This document shows, piece after piece, positions 11,315 to 27,772 of a DNA stretch of 64,000 nucleotides. The stretch is taken from contig NZ_SNWE01000009.1 of assembly GCF_004362395.1 (NCBI RefSeq), positions 62,001 to 126,000 of the forward strand, in the 5' to 3' direction. The stretch is from Salegentibacter sp. 24 (GTDB lineage: Bacteria; Bacteroidota; Bacteroidia; Flavobacteriales; Flavobacteriaceae). The position numbers and the translations under genes are program-made. How positions within the stretch are numbered: position 1 is the stretch's first letter; each line of letters opens with the position of its first letter. The notes under the pieces were generated by a model, which saw only the letters and a program-made list of their open reading frames with translations, was not told the DNA's origin and searched no databases.

Positions 11315-13707
11315 TAGTCCAAAAGGCTTTCGTTGAATAATTCCAGTACCCTTTTGTATTCATCGGTCCAACTGCTGGGTGCTATAAAACCGTGACCTTC
11401 CACAGGATAAATTGCTATTTCCCAATCTTCTTTACCCAATTCAATTAATCGCTGGGAAAGCCTGACTACATCCTGAAAATGGACATTTACATCTACCATG
11501 CCATGAGCAATCAATAAATCCCCTTCCAGTCCCTCGGCAAAATAAATGGGGGAAGATCTTCTATATGCAATAGGATCCAATGAGGGTTCGTTAAGGATGT
11601 TCGATGTATAGCCGTGATTATAATGTGCCCAGTCTGTTACTGATCGCAAAGCAGCACCGGCTTTAAAAGTCTCAGGTTCAGTAAACATGGCCATTAAGGT
11701 GATAAATCCACCGTAGCTTCCACCATATATTCCTACTTTTTCTGGGTTTATTTCGTGATTTTCTACCAAATATTCTACGCCATCAACCTGGTCCGAAAGA
11801 TCTTTTCCGCCCATATGACGATAAATGCCTGTTCGCCAATCGCGACCATAACCAGCGCTTCCGCGATAATCAATATCAATTACAGTGTAACCTAAATCGG
11901 CCAAAAGATTATGAAACATGTATTCCCTAAAATAACTACTCCACCATTTATGAGCGTTTTGCAGGTAACCTGCGCCGTGGACAAAAACAACAGCCGCATT
12001 GTTTTTTACATCAGGTTCGGGTTTGTATAATCTAGCAGGAACCATAGCCCCATCTTCGGCCTCAAATTTTATTAATTCGGGTTCTCTCCACTGGTAGTTG
12101 CTAAATATTTCCGATTGTCCTTTTGTTAATTGTTTGGCCTTGCCATTTGCTTTTGTTTTTTTTAAATATAACTCCCAGGGCTTGTTGCTGTACGAATACA
12201 AAATAGCCATATGTTTTTCATCGGGGGATAAGTAAACATCGTTGTTCCCTTCCATTTGGGTAAGTTTTTCCATTTTACCACCCATTACCGGCATTTTATA
12301 AAAATGACGTTCACCGGGGCCAACTTCAGAAGTGGTTAAGAACCAATCTTTTTTATTATTGGAAAGTACAGGATCAAATACCTCGAATTCTCCTTGGGTA
12401 AGCGCTTTTTTCTTTCCACTGGTAACATCCAATAAGTACAGATGGGAATATCCGGTTTCTTCACTTTGAAAGTAAATATGCTTGTTATCGGGAAGCCACC
12501 CCATGTCTTCGCCGCCGTAAAATGTATAGCCTATCCCAGGGCCTGCAATCCAGGCTTCGTCACGCTGGCGGTCTAGAGTAGTTACATCGCCGTTTTCCAG
12601 ATTGATTCTAGCAATCCACCGGTCTTTATTGTCCTTTGAACGCAAATTTACAACCGCGAGTTCCCCATTTTCTGAAAAATATACCTTAGTAGGCACTACT
12701 TCCCTTTCAGCTTTTTTCCATTCTTTATTGGGATAATCTTTTATATATGCAGGAAGGTCAGTGATTCCTGGCAAATCCTGAGTCTCTACCATATATACGG
12801 TGTCCTTTTGAAAATTATAGACTGCCAGCTCAACTTTTGTCTCGTTTTCCCCAACTTTACTGCGGGCAGACAGGTTTTCGGTATAACCTGTTTCATCAAC
12901 GTAATTGGGAACATTTGTGCCTTCTCCGTCCTGCCGGGAAATTAGTTTAAAAGTAGCATATTGGGCATTAGGAGAAACCTGTAAACTACTGAGCTCCCGA
13001 TCTTCCAGGTAAAATCTGAATTCCTCTTTCTTAGCCATTGCCTCGCGATAAGCCTCCTTCCTTTCTTCTTCATCCTTACGCCGGTTTACAACCTCCAAAA
13101 GTTGCAGGTTTTCCTCCCTTAACCAGGTCTCTTTTTCTGAAAGTTCGGTTGGCTTTTCTTCTTCAGCTTTCCCTTTTTGAATGTTGGTGAGCTGTTTTAT
13201 ACTTCCCTGTTCAAGATTATAGATGAATGCATTTAAATTAGAAATAAAACTAATCTTATTTTCATCAGCCAGAAATTCCACATTATATATGGGCTCTGAA
13301 AGATCTAACAACTCAGTAGTTACTCCGGATCTGACATCGTAAATCACCAGGTTTCCTTCTTTGCTGAGTATTTTTTTGCTTCCTCCTTTATTAAAATCGC
13401 CTTGACGGGGAATCAAATTGCGCTCTTCTTTCGGACTCACTTTAATTATTTTTGAAGTATTGCTCAGTTCTATTTTATAAAGCGAATCCTCGGTGTTTTT
13501 TTCAGGATTATAATCAAAATAAATACTTTCACTGTCCGCACTCCATTTCACATTAGAAGGAAATGTTCCCATCCAATCGGGGTCCTGCATAATTTTTTCT
13601 ACAGAGAGTTCACTCTTTTGCGAAAAGCCGGTAACACTAATACTTAAAAATGTTAAAAACAGAAAGTAAGTTCTAAATTTAAGTAGGTCTTGTAAAGTTA
13701 TTCTCAT
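11314..13707 (-). CDS. Secreted S9 family peptidase (DPP-IV type)
   Basis: The 797-residue product has a signal peptide (hydrophobic stretch before VTGFSQ, about residues 14-29), a long beta-propeller region, and a C-terminal alpha/beta-hydrolase domain. The triad is S664 in YGGSYGGF, D739 in GMVDVNVH and H772 in VEGHGF. This order is that of dipeptidyl-peptidase IV and acylaminoacyl peptidases, which trim short peptides; the site of action would be the periplasm. A lysine/glutamate-rich insertion (about 185-225) interrupts the propeller. It is coupled by a TAATG overlap to the downstream cysteine-desulfurase-like gene, an unexpected partner. Confidence 0.88.
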   Translation of the reverse strand: MRITLQDLLKFRTYFLFLTFLSISVTGFSQKSELSVEKIMQDPDWMGTFPSNVKWSADSESIYFDYNPEKNTEDSLYKIELSNTSKIIKVSPKEERNLIPRQGDFNKGGSKKILSKEGNLVIYDVRSGVTTELLDLSEPIYNVEFLADENKISFISNLNAFIYNLEQGSIKQLTNIQKGKAEEEKPTELSEKETWLREENLQLLEVVNRRKDEEERKEAYREAMAKKEEFRFYLEDRELSSLQVSPNAQYATFKLISRQDGEGTNVPNYVDETGYTENLSARSKVGENETKVELAVYNFQKDTVYMVETQDLPGITDLPAYIKDYPNKEWKKAEREVVPTKVYFSENGELAVVNLRSKDNKDRWIARINLENGDVTTLDRQRDEAWIAGPGIGYTFYGGEDMGWLPDNKHIYFQSEETGYSHLYLLDVTSGKKKALTQGEFEVFDPVLSNNKKDWFLTTSEVGPGERHFYKMPVMGGKMEKLTQMEGNNDVYLSPDEKHMAILYSYSNKPWELYLKKTKANGKAKQLTKGQSEIFSNYQWREPELIKFEAEDGAMVPARLYKPEPDVKNNAAVVFVHGAGYLQNAHKWWSSYFREYMFHNLLADLGYTVIDIDYRGSAGYGRDWRTGIYRHMGGKDLSDQVDGVEYLVENHEINPEKVGIYGGSYGGFITLMAMFTEPETFKAGAALRSVTDWAHYNHGYTSNILNEPSLDPIAYRRSSPIYFAEGLEGDLLIAHGMVDVNVHFQDVVRLSQRLIELGKEDWEIAIYPVEGHGFIAPSSWTDEYKRVLELFNESLLD

Positions 13708-24774: not shown

Positions 24775-26673
24775 ATGAGTGACGCCCTAAAACACGAATG
24801 TGGAATTGCCCAAATACGGTTGCTGAAACCTCTTGAATTCTATAAAAAAAAGTATGGAACTGCCTTTTATGGAATTAACAAAATGTATTTGATGATGGAA
24901 AAACAGCATAACCGCGGACAGGATGGTGCCGGTTTTGCCAACATCAAATTAAATACCGCTCCCGGAGATCGTTATATAAGTCGAATTAGATCCAATGCAG
25001 CACAACCGATTCAGGATATTTTCGAGCAGATCAATGGCAGAATTAACCAGGAGATAAAAGCTAACCCTGAATTTGCTGATGATGTTTCTTTGCAAAAAAA
25101 GAACCTTCCTTATGTAGGAGAGGTTTACCTAGGACATGTTCGCTATGGAACTTTCGGGAAAAATAGTATAGAAAGCGTGCATCCATTCCTTCGCCAGAAT
25201 AACTGGATGCACCGAAACTTAATTGTTGCGGGAAATTTTAACATGACTAATGTCAATCAACTATTCAACAACCTGGTAGAGCTAGGGCAGCATCCAAAGG
25301 AAAAGGCCGATACCGTTACCGTAATGGAAAAAATTGGTCACTTTTTAGATTCTGAAGTTCAAAAACTATATAAGAAATTAAAAAAGAAAGGTTTTTCAAA
25401 AGTATCAGCTTCGCCCATAATAGCTGAGAAACTGAATGTTGCAAAAATCCTTAGAAAATCGTCTAAAAACTGGGATGGTGGATACGCCATGGCCGGTTTG
25501 CTGGGTCATGGTGATTCTTTTGTATTACGTGATCCTGCAGGCATACGTCCTGCCTATTATTATAAAGATGATGAAGTTGTAGTGGTTGCTTCCGAAAGAC
25601 CGGTCATTCAGACCGCTTTCAATGTAGATTTTAATGATGTTCACGAACTTCCACCGGGACATGCTATTATTACCAAAAAAAGTGGCGAGGTTAATATCAA
25701 ACAAATACTGGAGCCTTTAGAGCGAAAAGCTTGTTCCTTTGAACGCATTTATTTCTCGCGCGGAAGCGATGCCGAGATCTATAAAGAACGAAAAATGCTT
25801 GGCCGTTTATTGATGCCCGAAGTATTAAAATCTATAAACCACGATACGATAAATACAGTTTTTTCCTTTATTCCTAATACGGCTGAAACAAGTTTCTACG
25901 GAATGGTTGAAGCCGCACAGGATGAATTAAACAAACAGAAAAACGACGCCATCCTTGCCGAAAAAGATACTTTGACTGATGCACGACTTCAAGAGATTTT
26001 AGCGCATCGCTTGCGCACCGAAAAAATTGCGATTAAAGATGTTAAGCTCAGGACTTTTATTACTGAAGATAGCAGCAGGGATGATCTTGTGGCACACGTT
26101 TATGATGTGACATACGGTGTGGTAAAACCAGAAGATAGTCTGGTAATTATAGATGATAGTATTGTTAGGGGAACTACATTGAAGAAAAGTATCATTAAAA
26201 TGCTGGACAGGTTAAATCCAAAGCAAATAGTGGTAGTTTCATCGGCCCCTCAAATTCGTTATCCAGATTGTTACGGGATTGATATGGCGAGACTAGAAGA
26301 TCTTGTAGCCTTTCAGGCAGCCCTTGAACTCCTAAAGGATAGGGGGCAATATGATATTGTAGAAAAGGTATACGAAAAATGTAAAATCCAGGTAGATCTT
26401 GCCGATGTGGAAGTGAAAAATTTCGTTAAAGAAATCTACGAACCTTTTACAGATGAACAAATTTCCGATAAGATTTCAAAATTACTTTGTGATATCGATG
26501 TGAAAGCAGATGTAAAGGTAATCTACCAAACAGTAAATAATTTACATAAAGCCTGTCCTAAAAACCTCGGTGACTGGTATTTCACAGGGGATTACCCCAC
26601 CTTTGGAGGGAACCGGGTAGTTAATAGAGCTTTTATAAATTTTTACGAAGGAAATGAAGGAAGAGCCTATTAA
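24775..26673 (+). CDS. purF: Amidophosphoribosyltransferase, long Bacteroidota form
   Basis: PurF makes phosphoribosylamine from PRPP and glutamine, the first step of purine synthesis. The 632-residue product is longer than the roughly 500-residue E. coli enzyme, as is usual in Bacteroidota. The glutaminase nucleophile is C9 (HECGIAQIR), which requires removal of an eight-residue propeptide; RGQDGAGFA and GHVRYGTFG follow. The PRPP loop is VIIDDSIVRG (about 457-466). The extra length lies in insertions of the glutaminase half and a C-terminal extension. Two small-RNA copies follow in its 3' region. Confidence 0.92.
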   Translation: MSDALKHECGIAQIRLLKPLEFYKKKYGTAFYGINKMYLMMEKQHNRGQDGAGFANIKLNTAPGDRYISRIRSNAAQPIQDIFEQINGRINQEIKANPEFADDVSLQKKNLPYVGEVYLGHVRYGTFGKNSIESVHPFLRQNNWMHRNLIVAGNFNMTNVNQLFNNLVELGQHPKEKADTVTVMEKIGHFLDSEVQKLYKKLKKKGFSKVSASPIIAEKLNVAKILRKSSKNWDGGYAMAGLLGHGDSFVLRDPAGIRPAYYYKDDEVVVVASERPVIQTAFNVDFNDVHELPPGHAIITKKSGEVNIKQILEPLERKACSFERIYFSRGSDAEIYKERKMLGRLLMPEVLKSINHDTINTVFSFIPNTAETSFYGMVEAAQDELNKQKNDAILAEKDTLTDARLQEILAHRLRTEKIAIKDVKLRTFITEDSSRDDLVAHVYDVTYGVVKPEDSLVIIDDSIVRGTTLKKSIIKMLDRLNPKQIVVVSSAPQIRYPDCYGIDMARLEDLVAFQAALELLKDRGQYDIVEKVYEKCKIQVDLADVEVKNFVKEIYEPFTDEQISDKISKLLCDIDVKADVKVIYQTVNNLHKACPKNLGDWYFTGDYPTFGGNRVVNRAFINFYEGNEGRAY

Positions 26674-26682
26674 GTGCTTTTA

Positions 26683-26710
26683 AACAAATAATTATGCCTT
26701 TCGTCTAAAA
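26683..26710 (+). promoter_or_regulatory. Conserved box upstream of small RNA copy 1
   Basis: These 28 bases recur at 26915-26942 with three differences; the shared core is TGCCTTTnGTCTAAAA. The box ends exactly 26 bases before the -7 element in both copies, while those 26 bases have diverged. That suggests a protein-binding site or upstream promoter element. Confidence 0.5.
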
Positions 26711-26736
26711 TGATTCCTGGAAGGAATATATTTATT

Positions 26737-26744
26737 TACATTAG
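26737..26744 (+). promoter_or_regulatory. -7 box of small RNA copy 1
   Basis: TACATTAG differs from TAnnTTTG at one base, the same base as in copy 2 (TACTTTAG). It lies seven bases before the start of the segment conserved between the copies. No exact TTG is present at -33. Confidence 0.45.
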
Positions 26745-26750
26745 CATTAC

Positions 26751-26824
26751 CATAAACATAAGTAGGTTAAGTTCATGGTAGATTTGGGGCAAAAAAAGGT
26801 GGATCTAAAAATCCGCCTTTTTTT
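26751..26824 (+). ncRNA. Small RNA, tandem copy 1
   Basis: About 74 bases, bounded by a -7 box (26737-26744) and a Rho-independent terminator (26798-26824). From 26755 to 26810 it is identical to 26986-27041. The terminator stem is GGTGGAT with ATCCGCC, including one G-T pair, behind seven A residues and before seven T residues. The conserved 5' part (AAGTAGGTTAAGTTCATGG, then GATTTGGGG) is unstructured to the eye and could be a seed that pairs with messages. An in-frame ATG reads MVDLGQKKVDLK, but a two-base length difference between copies breaks that frame, so a peptide is unlikely. It may also be made by processing of the purF 3' end. Confidence 0.6.
26798..26824 (+). terminator. Terminator of small RNA copy 1 (and of purF)
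   Basis: GGTGGAT (26798-26804) pairs with ATCCGCC (26811-26817), followed by seven T residues. It is the first terminator after purF, so purF transcripts probably end here too. Confidence 0.8.
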
Positions 26825-26914
26825 ATTCTTAATTAATTCCTCCTGCTAAATTCTCACATTTCAAGGTCATTGATCTTAATTTTTCTTACACTCTTTTTTG
26901 ATTTTTAATACTTT

Positions 26915-26942
26915 AACAAATAATGGTGCCTTTGGTCTAAAA
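26915..26942 (+). promoter_or_regulatory. Conserved box upstream of small RNA copy 2
   Basis: Second copy of the 28-base box at 26683-26710, with three base differences and the same 26-base distance to the -7 element. Confidence 0.5.
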
Positions 26943-26945
26943 AAG

Positions 26946-26976
26946 TTGTCGGTTAGAAACATTCCTATTACTTTAG
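26946..26976 (+). promoter_or_regulatory. Promoter of small RNA copy 2
   Basis: TTG (26946-26948), 20 bases, then TACTTTAG (26969-26976), one base off the -7 consensus. Transcription would start near 26983. Confidence 0.6.
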
Positions 26977-26982
26977 AAGTAC

Positions 26983-27057
26983 CATAACATAAGTAGGTTA
27001 AGTTCATGGTAGATTTGGGGCAAAAAAAGGTGGATCTAAAAAAATCCGCCTTTTTTT
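26983..27057 (+). ncRNA. Small RNA, tandem copy 2
   Basis: About 75 bases, with its own promoter and a terminator (27029-27057). It shares 56 identical bases in a row with copy 1 and differs afterwards by two extra A residues in the terminator loop. Because it lies after the terminator of copy 1, it must be transcribed from its own promoter. A structured-RNA family from flavobacteria (for example Flavo-1) is a possible identity, but I cannot test this by eye. Confidence 0.62.
27029..27057 (+). terminator. Terminator of small RNA copy 2
   Basis: GGTGGAT (27029-27035) pairs with ATCCGCC (27044-27050), followed by seven T residues; the loop is two bases longer than in copy 1. Confidence 0.8.
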
Positions 27058-27077: not shown

Positions 27078-27102
27078 AAAGACCGCCATCAGGACGGTCT
27101 TT
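27078..27102 (-). terminator. Terminator of the superoxide dismutase gene
   Basis: AAAGACCG (27078-27085) pairs with CGGTCTTT (27095-27102). It lies 24 bases beyond the stop of the minus-strand dismutase gene and has a T run on that strand. Confidence 0.75.
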
Positions 27103-27126: not shown

Positions 27127-27735
27127 TTATTTCTGCTTGGCATATCTGCTTCCAACTTCTTTCCAATCTATTACATTAAAGAAAGCTTCAATATAATCAG
27201 GACGACGATTTTGGTAGTTTAGATAATAAGCATGTTCCCAAACATCAATACCTAAAATAGGAGTTCCTCCACAGCCAATTCCAGGCATTAAAGGATTATC
27301 CTGGTTGGCAGTAGAACAAACTTCTACTTTTCCACCTTCGTGAACACAAAGCCAAGCCCATCCAGAACCAAACTGTCCGGCAGCTGCTTTAGAAAATTCA
27401 TCTTTAAAAGCTTCAAAAGAACCGAATGCGTTATCTATTGCTTTTGCAAGATCGCCTTCTGGTTTTCCTCCACCGTCTGGAGACATGATCTCCCAAAATA
27501 ATTTGTGATTATAAAACCCACCACCGTTGTTTCTAACAGCTGTATTAGACTTATCAAGATTTTCCAGAATATTTTCAATGGTTTTTCCTTCCAGATCAGT
27601 GCCTTCAATAGCTGCATTCAATTTTTTAGTATAACCAGCGTGGTGTTTGCCATGGTGAATTTCCATGGTTTTCGCATCTATATGTGGTTCTAATGCATCA
27701 AATGCATATTTTAACTTTGGTAACTCAAAAGCCAT
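27127..27735 (-). CDS. Iron/manganese superoxide dismutase
   Basis: The enzyme converts superoxide to oxygen and peroxide. From ATG 27735 the product has 202 residues, with metal ligands H27 (MEIHHGKHH), the His in FYNHKLFWE, and the Asp and His in [18 protein letters not shown]. The frame continues 12 codons upstream, but [10 protein letters not shown] is the normal start. Absence of a signal peptide puts it in the cytosol. Whether it uses iron, manganese or either cannot be decided from these residues. It is a single gene with its own promoter and terminator. Confidence 0.95.
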
Positions 27736-27772
27736 TTGTATATATTTTTTAGTGATTAGTAATAAATTCACT

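Follow-up and report, generated by a model that had tools for sequence, protein, structure and literature searches.

A predicted multicopy small RNA with a shared upstream element, in tandem behind purF and conserved across Flavobacteriaceae

Introduction

Sibling small RNAs of the Qrr, csRNA and LhrC kind have one promoter per copy and stand under a common regulator. To our knowledge, only a few small RNAs of Flavobacteriaceae have been investigated. Genomes with more than one near-identical copy are reported for Qrr of Vibrio, the Cia-dependent csRNAs of Streptococcus and LhrC of Listeria in the accessible part of PMC11697453. The same part describes the FopS and GibS RNAs of Bacteroides (RF04319 and RF04182), which are multicopy, about 70 nt long and ended by an intrinsic terminator; the seed of FopS pairs with SusC gene starts and covers the translation start. 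For Flavobacterium psychrophilum, the accessible part of PMC9723704 gives a transcript map reporting 85 new RNAs, as well as Rfp18, an RNA conserved among flavobacteria that has at least three stem-loops and pairs via the third. It also gives a flavobacterial promoter box, TAnnTTTG, that spans -12 to -5, and notes that Flavo-1 (RF01705) occurs in Flavobacteriaceae.

Here we describe a pair of tandem units in Salegentibacter sp. 24, found in the window (the whole 64,000-nucleotide stretch of DNA that was analysed). These units resemble FopS and GibS in being multicopy Bacteroidota RNAs of similar length with an intrinsic terminator and a similar stretch of sequence. They differ from them as follows: the 5' end is single-stranded in FopS and GibS as described (PMC11697453, accessible part), whereas a 5' hairpin is predicted here in both copies and in the family consensus, and the present RNA lies in tandem at one locus with a shared upstream element of 20-bp period. 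With Rfp18 it has in common its conservation among flavobacteria and the kind of -7 box given in the same paper, but it has two hairpins instead of at least three, a comparison by description in the accessible part of PMC9723704. Like the Qrr, csRNA and LhrC sets it occurs in several near-identical copies; its promoter boxes and common upstream element were found by sequence, and its regulator and transcripts are predictions. The RNA may already be numbered among the Rfp RNAs of F. psychrophilum. Among the matches listed in literature searches on flavobacterial small RNAs, Rfp18 and FopS, which left subscription papers mostly outside, none described this locus.

Results

In the window, 57 nt recur without a mismatch as a direct repeat (26755-26811 and 26986-27042). 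The sequence-only reading had described an identical core of 56 bases (26755-26810 and 26986-27041); the identity holds, and the length is corrected by one base. A second direct repeat, of 31 bases and 87% identical, lies at 26680-26710 and 26912-26942. The earlier picture of an exact core between drifting flanks is thus right for the core and wrong for the flanks, where this repeat is part of a conserved upstream element. Both copies are laid out alike (Table 1): a short hairpin at the 5' end is joined by the 11-base linker AGATTTGGGGC to a terminator, and the terminator hairpin is indeed the same in both, with a common 14-bp stem and loops of 6 and 8 nt. The predicted folding energies are -25.1 kcal/mol for copy 1 and -23.8 kcal/mol for copy 2 (z -4.8 and -4.3), and none of 200 shuffles was as stable as either copy; the opposite strand folds about equally well, as expected of hairpins. 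BLAST and the covariance model alike find exactly two copies in the own genome. A small ORF over the core was rejected, its reading frame differing between core versions with and without an extra A, and so was a riboswitch or attenuator, there being no same-strand gene downstream before sod.

Table 1. Features of the purF-sod interval in window coordinates.
Feature	Position	Strand	Basis or remark
purF (product presumed)	24775..26673	+	ORF; conserved upstream neighbour
Half-site 1 of copy 1, GCTTTTAAACAAA	26676..26688	+	Alignment of 220 upstream regions; 87% repeat
Half-site 2 of copy 1, GCCTTTCGTCTAA	26696..26708	+	Exactly 20 bp beyond half-site 1
-7 promoter box of copy 1, TACATTAG	26737-26744	+	Flavobacterial consensus TAnnTTTG
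Predicted small RNA, copy 1	26749..26824	+	Fold, repeat, covariance model; start inferred from -7 box
Copy 1, 5' hairpin	26749-26779	+	
Copy 1, linker	26780-26790	+	
Copy 1, terminator	26791-26824	+	
Half-site 1 of copy 2	26908..26920	+	Consensus GC at the start is absent
Half-site 2 of copy 2, GCCTTTGGTCTAA	26928..26940	+	87% repeat; upstream-region alignment
-7 promoter box of copy 2, TACTTTAG	26969-26976	+	Flavobacterial consensus TAnnTTTG
Predicted small RNA, copy 2	26981..27057	+	Fold, repeat, covariance model; start inferred from -7 box
Copy 2, 5' hairpin	26981-27010	+	
Copy 2, linker	27011-27021	+	
Copy 2, terminator	27022-27057	+	
sod (product presumed)	27127..27771	-	Longest ORF; usual convergent downstream neighbour; true start probably near 27735

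The names of the flanking genes are our own assignments: we take the upstream ORF to be purF, as the sequence-only reading did, and the downstream one to be a superoxide dismutase gene (sod) from its protein sequence. On the minus strand a hairpin with a T-run lies right behind copy 2 (27078-27102) and is likely the sod terminator.

A -7 box stands close upstream of each copy, as had been claimed, and so does the TTG ahead of copy 2 (26946-26948, 20 bases upstream of its -7 box). Across the family copies, the base frequencies at -12 to -5 are.85 for T,.87 for A, 1.00 and.92 for TT and.74 for G. Because TAnnTTTG spans -12 to -5, the predicted transcription starts are 26749 and 26981, exactly where the two 5' hairpins begin. 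A simple E. coli-type scan recovered no promoter and one of the two terminators here; flavobacterial promoters are of a different type. Comparison across hundreds of genomes supports the view that these are two small-RNA genes, predicted to be transcribed, each of which has a promoter and a terminator to itself.

The core recurs in related genomes, whereas its absence from all of them was one of the outcomes that the sequence-only reading had named as refuting it. BLAST with 87 bases gave a match in 243 of 299 genomes of the host family, and the covariance model (E <= 1e-6) did so in 330 of 395 family genomes, representing 174 of 203 genera. The named loci include Maribacter, Zobellia, Muricauda, Aquimarina, Winogradskyella and Salegentibacter, and the large genus g127 is probably Flavobacterium, judging solely by its many species. 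The model was built from 31 of 34 selected copies, three (L067:6646, L092:2419 and L108:7054) being excluded for odd linkers or ends, and mostly from loci L032-L149, which were chosen by a loop 15-mer among the matches listed; 11 of 149 loci were dropped as copy-free, nine labelled as other taxa and two, L097 and L098, flavobacterial. In a phylum-wide sample the model matched 33 of 395 genomes at E <= 1e-6, all 33 in the host family. At the order level and a looser E <= 0.01, 73 of 395 genomes matched, 65 in the host family and 8 in other families. Seven of these eight (E 0.0005-0.01) we take as chance. The eighth, at E 9.5e-17, is in G671, a 74% complete MAG, and reflects misassignment, contamination or transfer; the genome is possibly misassigned. 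The corresponding locus (L340, G671:C81:1-8000) shows the RNA with purF-sod-addA synteny in a MAG filed under another family.

The surroundings of the RNA are conserved as well. Among 137 loci, in which some genomes are present under two loci and from which L002 (the same place as L001) was removed, purF lies at most 300 bp upstream in 113 of the 127 with at least 400 bp of upstream sequence, and a convergent sod or addA lies downstream in 73 of the 90 with at least 1500 bp of downstream sequence. purF also precedes the array in all 12 g127 loci examined. Neighbouring copies share their orientation in 152 of 152 pairs, counted with the same caveat, and 128 of these pairs are 185-260 bp apart. 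The 89 complete arrays hold one copy in 22 cases, two in 33, three in 17, four in 11, five in 5 and six in 1, so that at least two near-identical copies occur in 67 of 89; genome G223 has seven covariance model matches. Identity within arrays compared with that between loci is 0.965 against 0.947 for the core and 0.80 against 0.76 for the terminator. Many arrays therefore look old, their copies being barely more alike than copies of different loci; some arrays (L334) contain identical copies.

Conservation is uneven along the RNA. In 35 distinct rows from 20 loci, g127 included, mean column identity is 0.90 in the 5' arm, 0.97 in the loop and 3' arm, 0.92 in the linker and 0.84 in the terminator, the last value being raised by gap columns; in the large copy set loop conservation is biased, the loci having been picked for the loop 15-mer. 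The loop, 3' arm and linker hardly vary while the 5' arm drifts, an asymmetry which suggests that the former are the working sequence.

The covariation foreseen in the stem lies mostly in the terminator and is slight in the 5' hairpin. In the 35-row alignment, which was fitted to the model and so leans towards structure, and from which row L335:3240-3300 (wrong strand) was left out, 8 of 20 pairs change on both sides with pairing kept, a number that 1 of 500 shuffles reaches. There are 38 such two-sided cells, a number reached by none of 500 shuffles, and the share of paired cells falls from 96% to 66% or less when the partners are slid. The number of pair types in the 35 rows is not above that of shuffles (221 of 500). 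Seven of the eight two-sided pairs lie in the terminator and one (2 cells) in the 5' hairpin, where 19 of the 35 rows break one of the upper-stem pairs. An unfitted alignment, A2, gives 9 of 20 two-sided pairs, with 0 of 500 shuffles reaching this and slid versions reaching 4-9. It has 34 two-sided cells against at most 22 when slid, and 94% of cells paired against at most 58%, and for A2 it is these two figures on which the argument depends; one 5' hairpin pair changes on both sides, in two rows. The case for the 5' hairpin, as modelled, comes mainly from its predicted energy and from its base staying paired.

Upstream of the -7 box the copies share a motif, GC..TT.A.C.AA, which is repeated exactly 20 bp on and occupies about -73 to -41; at copy 1 its first base lies 3 bases past the stop codon of purF. 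A position-weight alignment of 220 upstream regions (291 copies, 286 with full flanks, 280 distinct and 220 after a 75% identity filter) yields a 42-column motif of 19.2 bits, compared with at most 4.9 bits in 20 mononucleotide-shuffled sets. In genus g127, 27 of 28 copies in 12 loci exceed the 99th percentile of shuffles, and each of the 27 has its match at -77 to -75; these loci have no overlap in handle or label with those that gave the motif, untitled MAG records being a possible exception, and some of the 28 copies are near-identical within an array. The one copy that lacks the element is a degenerate, low-scoring second copy (L330:3493-3566). Among copies not directly behind purF, the element is clear by eye in L136, L147 and L347 and weaker in L034, L344 and L345. 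In L105 (6526-6565), a decayed copy that has lost the hairpin partner and the terminator, the element is not seen. Dispersed copies that keep the core off purF were seen in two host-genus genomes (L344:3254-3328, L345:3094-3167 and L347:3515-3592).

Two helical turns separate the half-sites, which lie ahead of a weak -33 region and from their sequence and spacing look like a putative activator site. An activator of the LytTR type is one lead: AgrA-bound direct repeats have a similar geometry (PMC4227749, in the part accessible), but the bases of the present element do not clearly match them. The own genome has four exact matches to the pattern: the two RNA copies, one inside a gene and one intergenic. 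The intergenic match (L306:1501-1529, equivalent to G000:C14:18416-18444) has neither an RNA copy nor a long ORF directly behind it. A wider regulon was not seen in the own genome, where 25 matches with at most one mismatch compare with 34 for the control and seven contexts were read.

At gathering score the only Rfam match in the window is a tRNA elsewhere, and five further loci, four from relatives and one from the own genome, have none. Flavo-1, which the sequence-only reading had put forward for comparison, has no gathering match and is absent from the 48 matches listed at E <= 10. The lowest sub-threshold E values over this region belong to L20_leader (0.0028, minus strand, 27.4 bits, cut-off 58.7), whose match spans the sod terminator, and to sraA (0.013, 29.8 bits, cut-off 56). 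Both lie below their cut-offs and were set aside as terminator-driven chance.

A weaker match is to FopS, at 20.5 bits and E 0.13 on 68 bases (18.8 and 20 bits in the window), the gathering score of 56 bits not being reached. The resemblance consists of 15 identical bases apart from a 2-base gap, UUCAUGGUA..AGAUUU, the FopS R1' seed being UUCAUGGUAUUAGAUUUAAGG. Shuffles score as well for this stretch in 28 of 5000 cases, in 84 of 5000 for the own-genus core version and in 1535 of 5000 for the Flavobacterium-like version, and the reverse model search for FopS gave E 0.19 or worse. Across class genomes the FopS model reaches E <= 0.01 in 13 of 247, with 7 over the cut-off, and leaves the own genome without a match. 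Sub-threshold FopS-like matches of 34-37 bits (cut-off 56) were noted at L237:1501-1562, L238:1501-1579 and L239:1501-1566, mostly in families other than those above the cut-off; at L237 and L239 the sequence resembles a short RNA (UUUUUCAUAG..) with a terminator behind it. Antisense RNAs that cover start codons in the manner of FopS may be more widespread than known.

Target searches were carried out in the own genome. SusC starts are not favoured: 25 SusC genes compared with 367 other starts gave p 0.10-0.55 on z for four stretches, a test on 25 of the 27 SusC genes that passed the cut-off, with other starts drawn from about 0.46 Mb and start codons assigned by a crude rule. Raw pairing energies are weaker for SusC starts than for the other starts. 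The antisense of the 3' arm and linker has 205 matches with at most three mismatches, where the control has 150; base composition may account for this modest excess. Reading 28 of the 205 loci (L201-L228) gave no convincing start-codon site, the nearest being a weak one before a gene that we take to be uppS-like. The antisense of the loop has 24 matches with at most two mismatches, two of them the copies themselves, which is fewer than the 113 of the control.

Among the other 22 loop-antisense sites, three on the matching strand have a possible start within 80 bases, and only the one at pgk lies outside any ORF. The pgk gene (L296) was confirmed as PF00162. The site in its leader (L362, G000:C21, about 12083-12096) pairs 12 of 13 bases with the loop and lies 46 bases before the start codon. 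UUAAYCAAC at this place is kept in 10 of 11 host-genus loci with a start found, L350 lacking it, while adjacent bases change. As a target the pgk site is a weak lead, comparison among near relatives proving little. For a seed, the nearly invariant stretch of about 29 bases is long, and it would fit an RNA that binds protein as well.

Discussion

What computation establishes for this locus is its anatomy, its conservation and synteny, its copy number and the upstream element that the copies share. We consider it probable that each gene encodes a trans-acting small RNA of about 76 nt under its own activator, present in several copies that add dose. From the sequence data we infer transcription, the activator, the base-pairing mode and the role of dose. 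A transcription activator would bind the double half-site of 20-bp period, centred near -57; the transcript would begin with the 5' hairpin and end with the intrinsic terminator. The working stretch, AGUAGGUUAAGUU.AUGGUA(A)GAUUUGGGG, would comprise the hairpin loop, 3' arm and linker and pair with one or more mRNAs, and the drifting 5' arm (ACCAU...) would only cover part of it. Since the copies share both element and core, extra copies would add dose to one response. The sequence-only reading had proposed that duplication raises dose or splits control; dose fits better than split control, nearly every tested copy carrying the same element. Its proposal of a small regulatory RNA under selection is supported, at the level of sequence, by the nearly frozen core, the RNA's own element and the presence in 330 of 395 family genomes.

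The main rival is a protein-binding decoy, in which several copies of the hairpin and G-rich linker would soak up an RNA-binding protein and dose would set the level of free protein; CsrB/RsmZ-type RNAs act as such decoys. The near-frozen 5' part, the multiple copies and the target searches that yielded no firm mRNA target are all as this model would have them. Against it, the 5' arm drifts but the 3' arm does not, and an upper-stem pair is often broken, which points to sequence being read more than shape; moreover, the motif occurs once per RNA, with no repeats inside it. We regard a decoy as rather unlikely. A good deal less probable is a flavobacterial counterpart of FopS that blocks SusC-type start codons via UUCAUGGUA-AGAUUU. 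The sub-threshold cmscan match speaks for it, with only 28 of 5000 shuffles as high, as do the multiple copies of FopS and its seed over the translation start (PMC11697453, accessible part). But the match falls short of the score of 56, and other families score higher below their own cut-offs (sraA, 29.8 bits). The reverse search and the shuffles of the other core versions count against it, SusC starts are not favoured (25 against 367), the single-stranded 5' end of FopS contrasts with the hairpin predicted here, and the FopS model misses the own genome.

It is about as improbable that the locus holds no regulator and consists of the 3' end of the purF transcript with stacked terminators, the small RNAs being by-products at most. 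The array does lie right behind purF, a simple scan found no terminator between purF and copy 1, and the element all but abuts the stop codon. In a terminator, however, nothing would keep the loop, linker, -7 box and upstream element frozen; the terminators themselves vary freely, and some copies away from purF keep both core and element. A small mobile or palindromic repeat lying here by chance was already disfavoured and deserves hardly any credence: the multiple copies and the few dispersed ones would suit it, but there is one main locus with uniform orientation and with neighbours kept across the whole family.

Within the preferred reading of a trans-acting small RNA under its own activator, a more specific version is possible, and we put it forward tentatively. 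The array could be an output device like that of Qrr, in which a single dedicated activator with hardly any other genomic site would switch on between one and seven near-identical small RNAs, and their invariant stretch would reset a group of mRNAs that is itself conserved. If this is true, copy number would tune a signalling pathway not yet recognised in Flavobacteriaceae. The whole array could be removed as one block behind purF in laboratory strains. With its occurrence in 174 of 203 sampled genera, unmatched by Rfam 15, its frozen core and its own upstream element, the RNA is a strong candidate for a core post-transcriptional regulator of the family.
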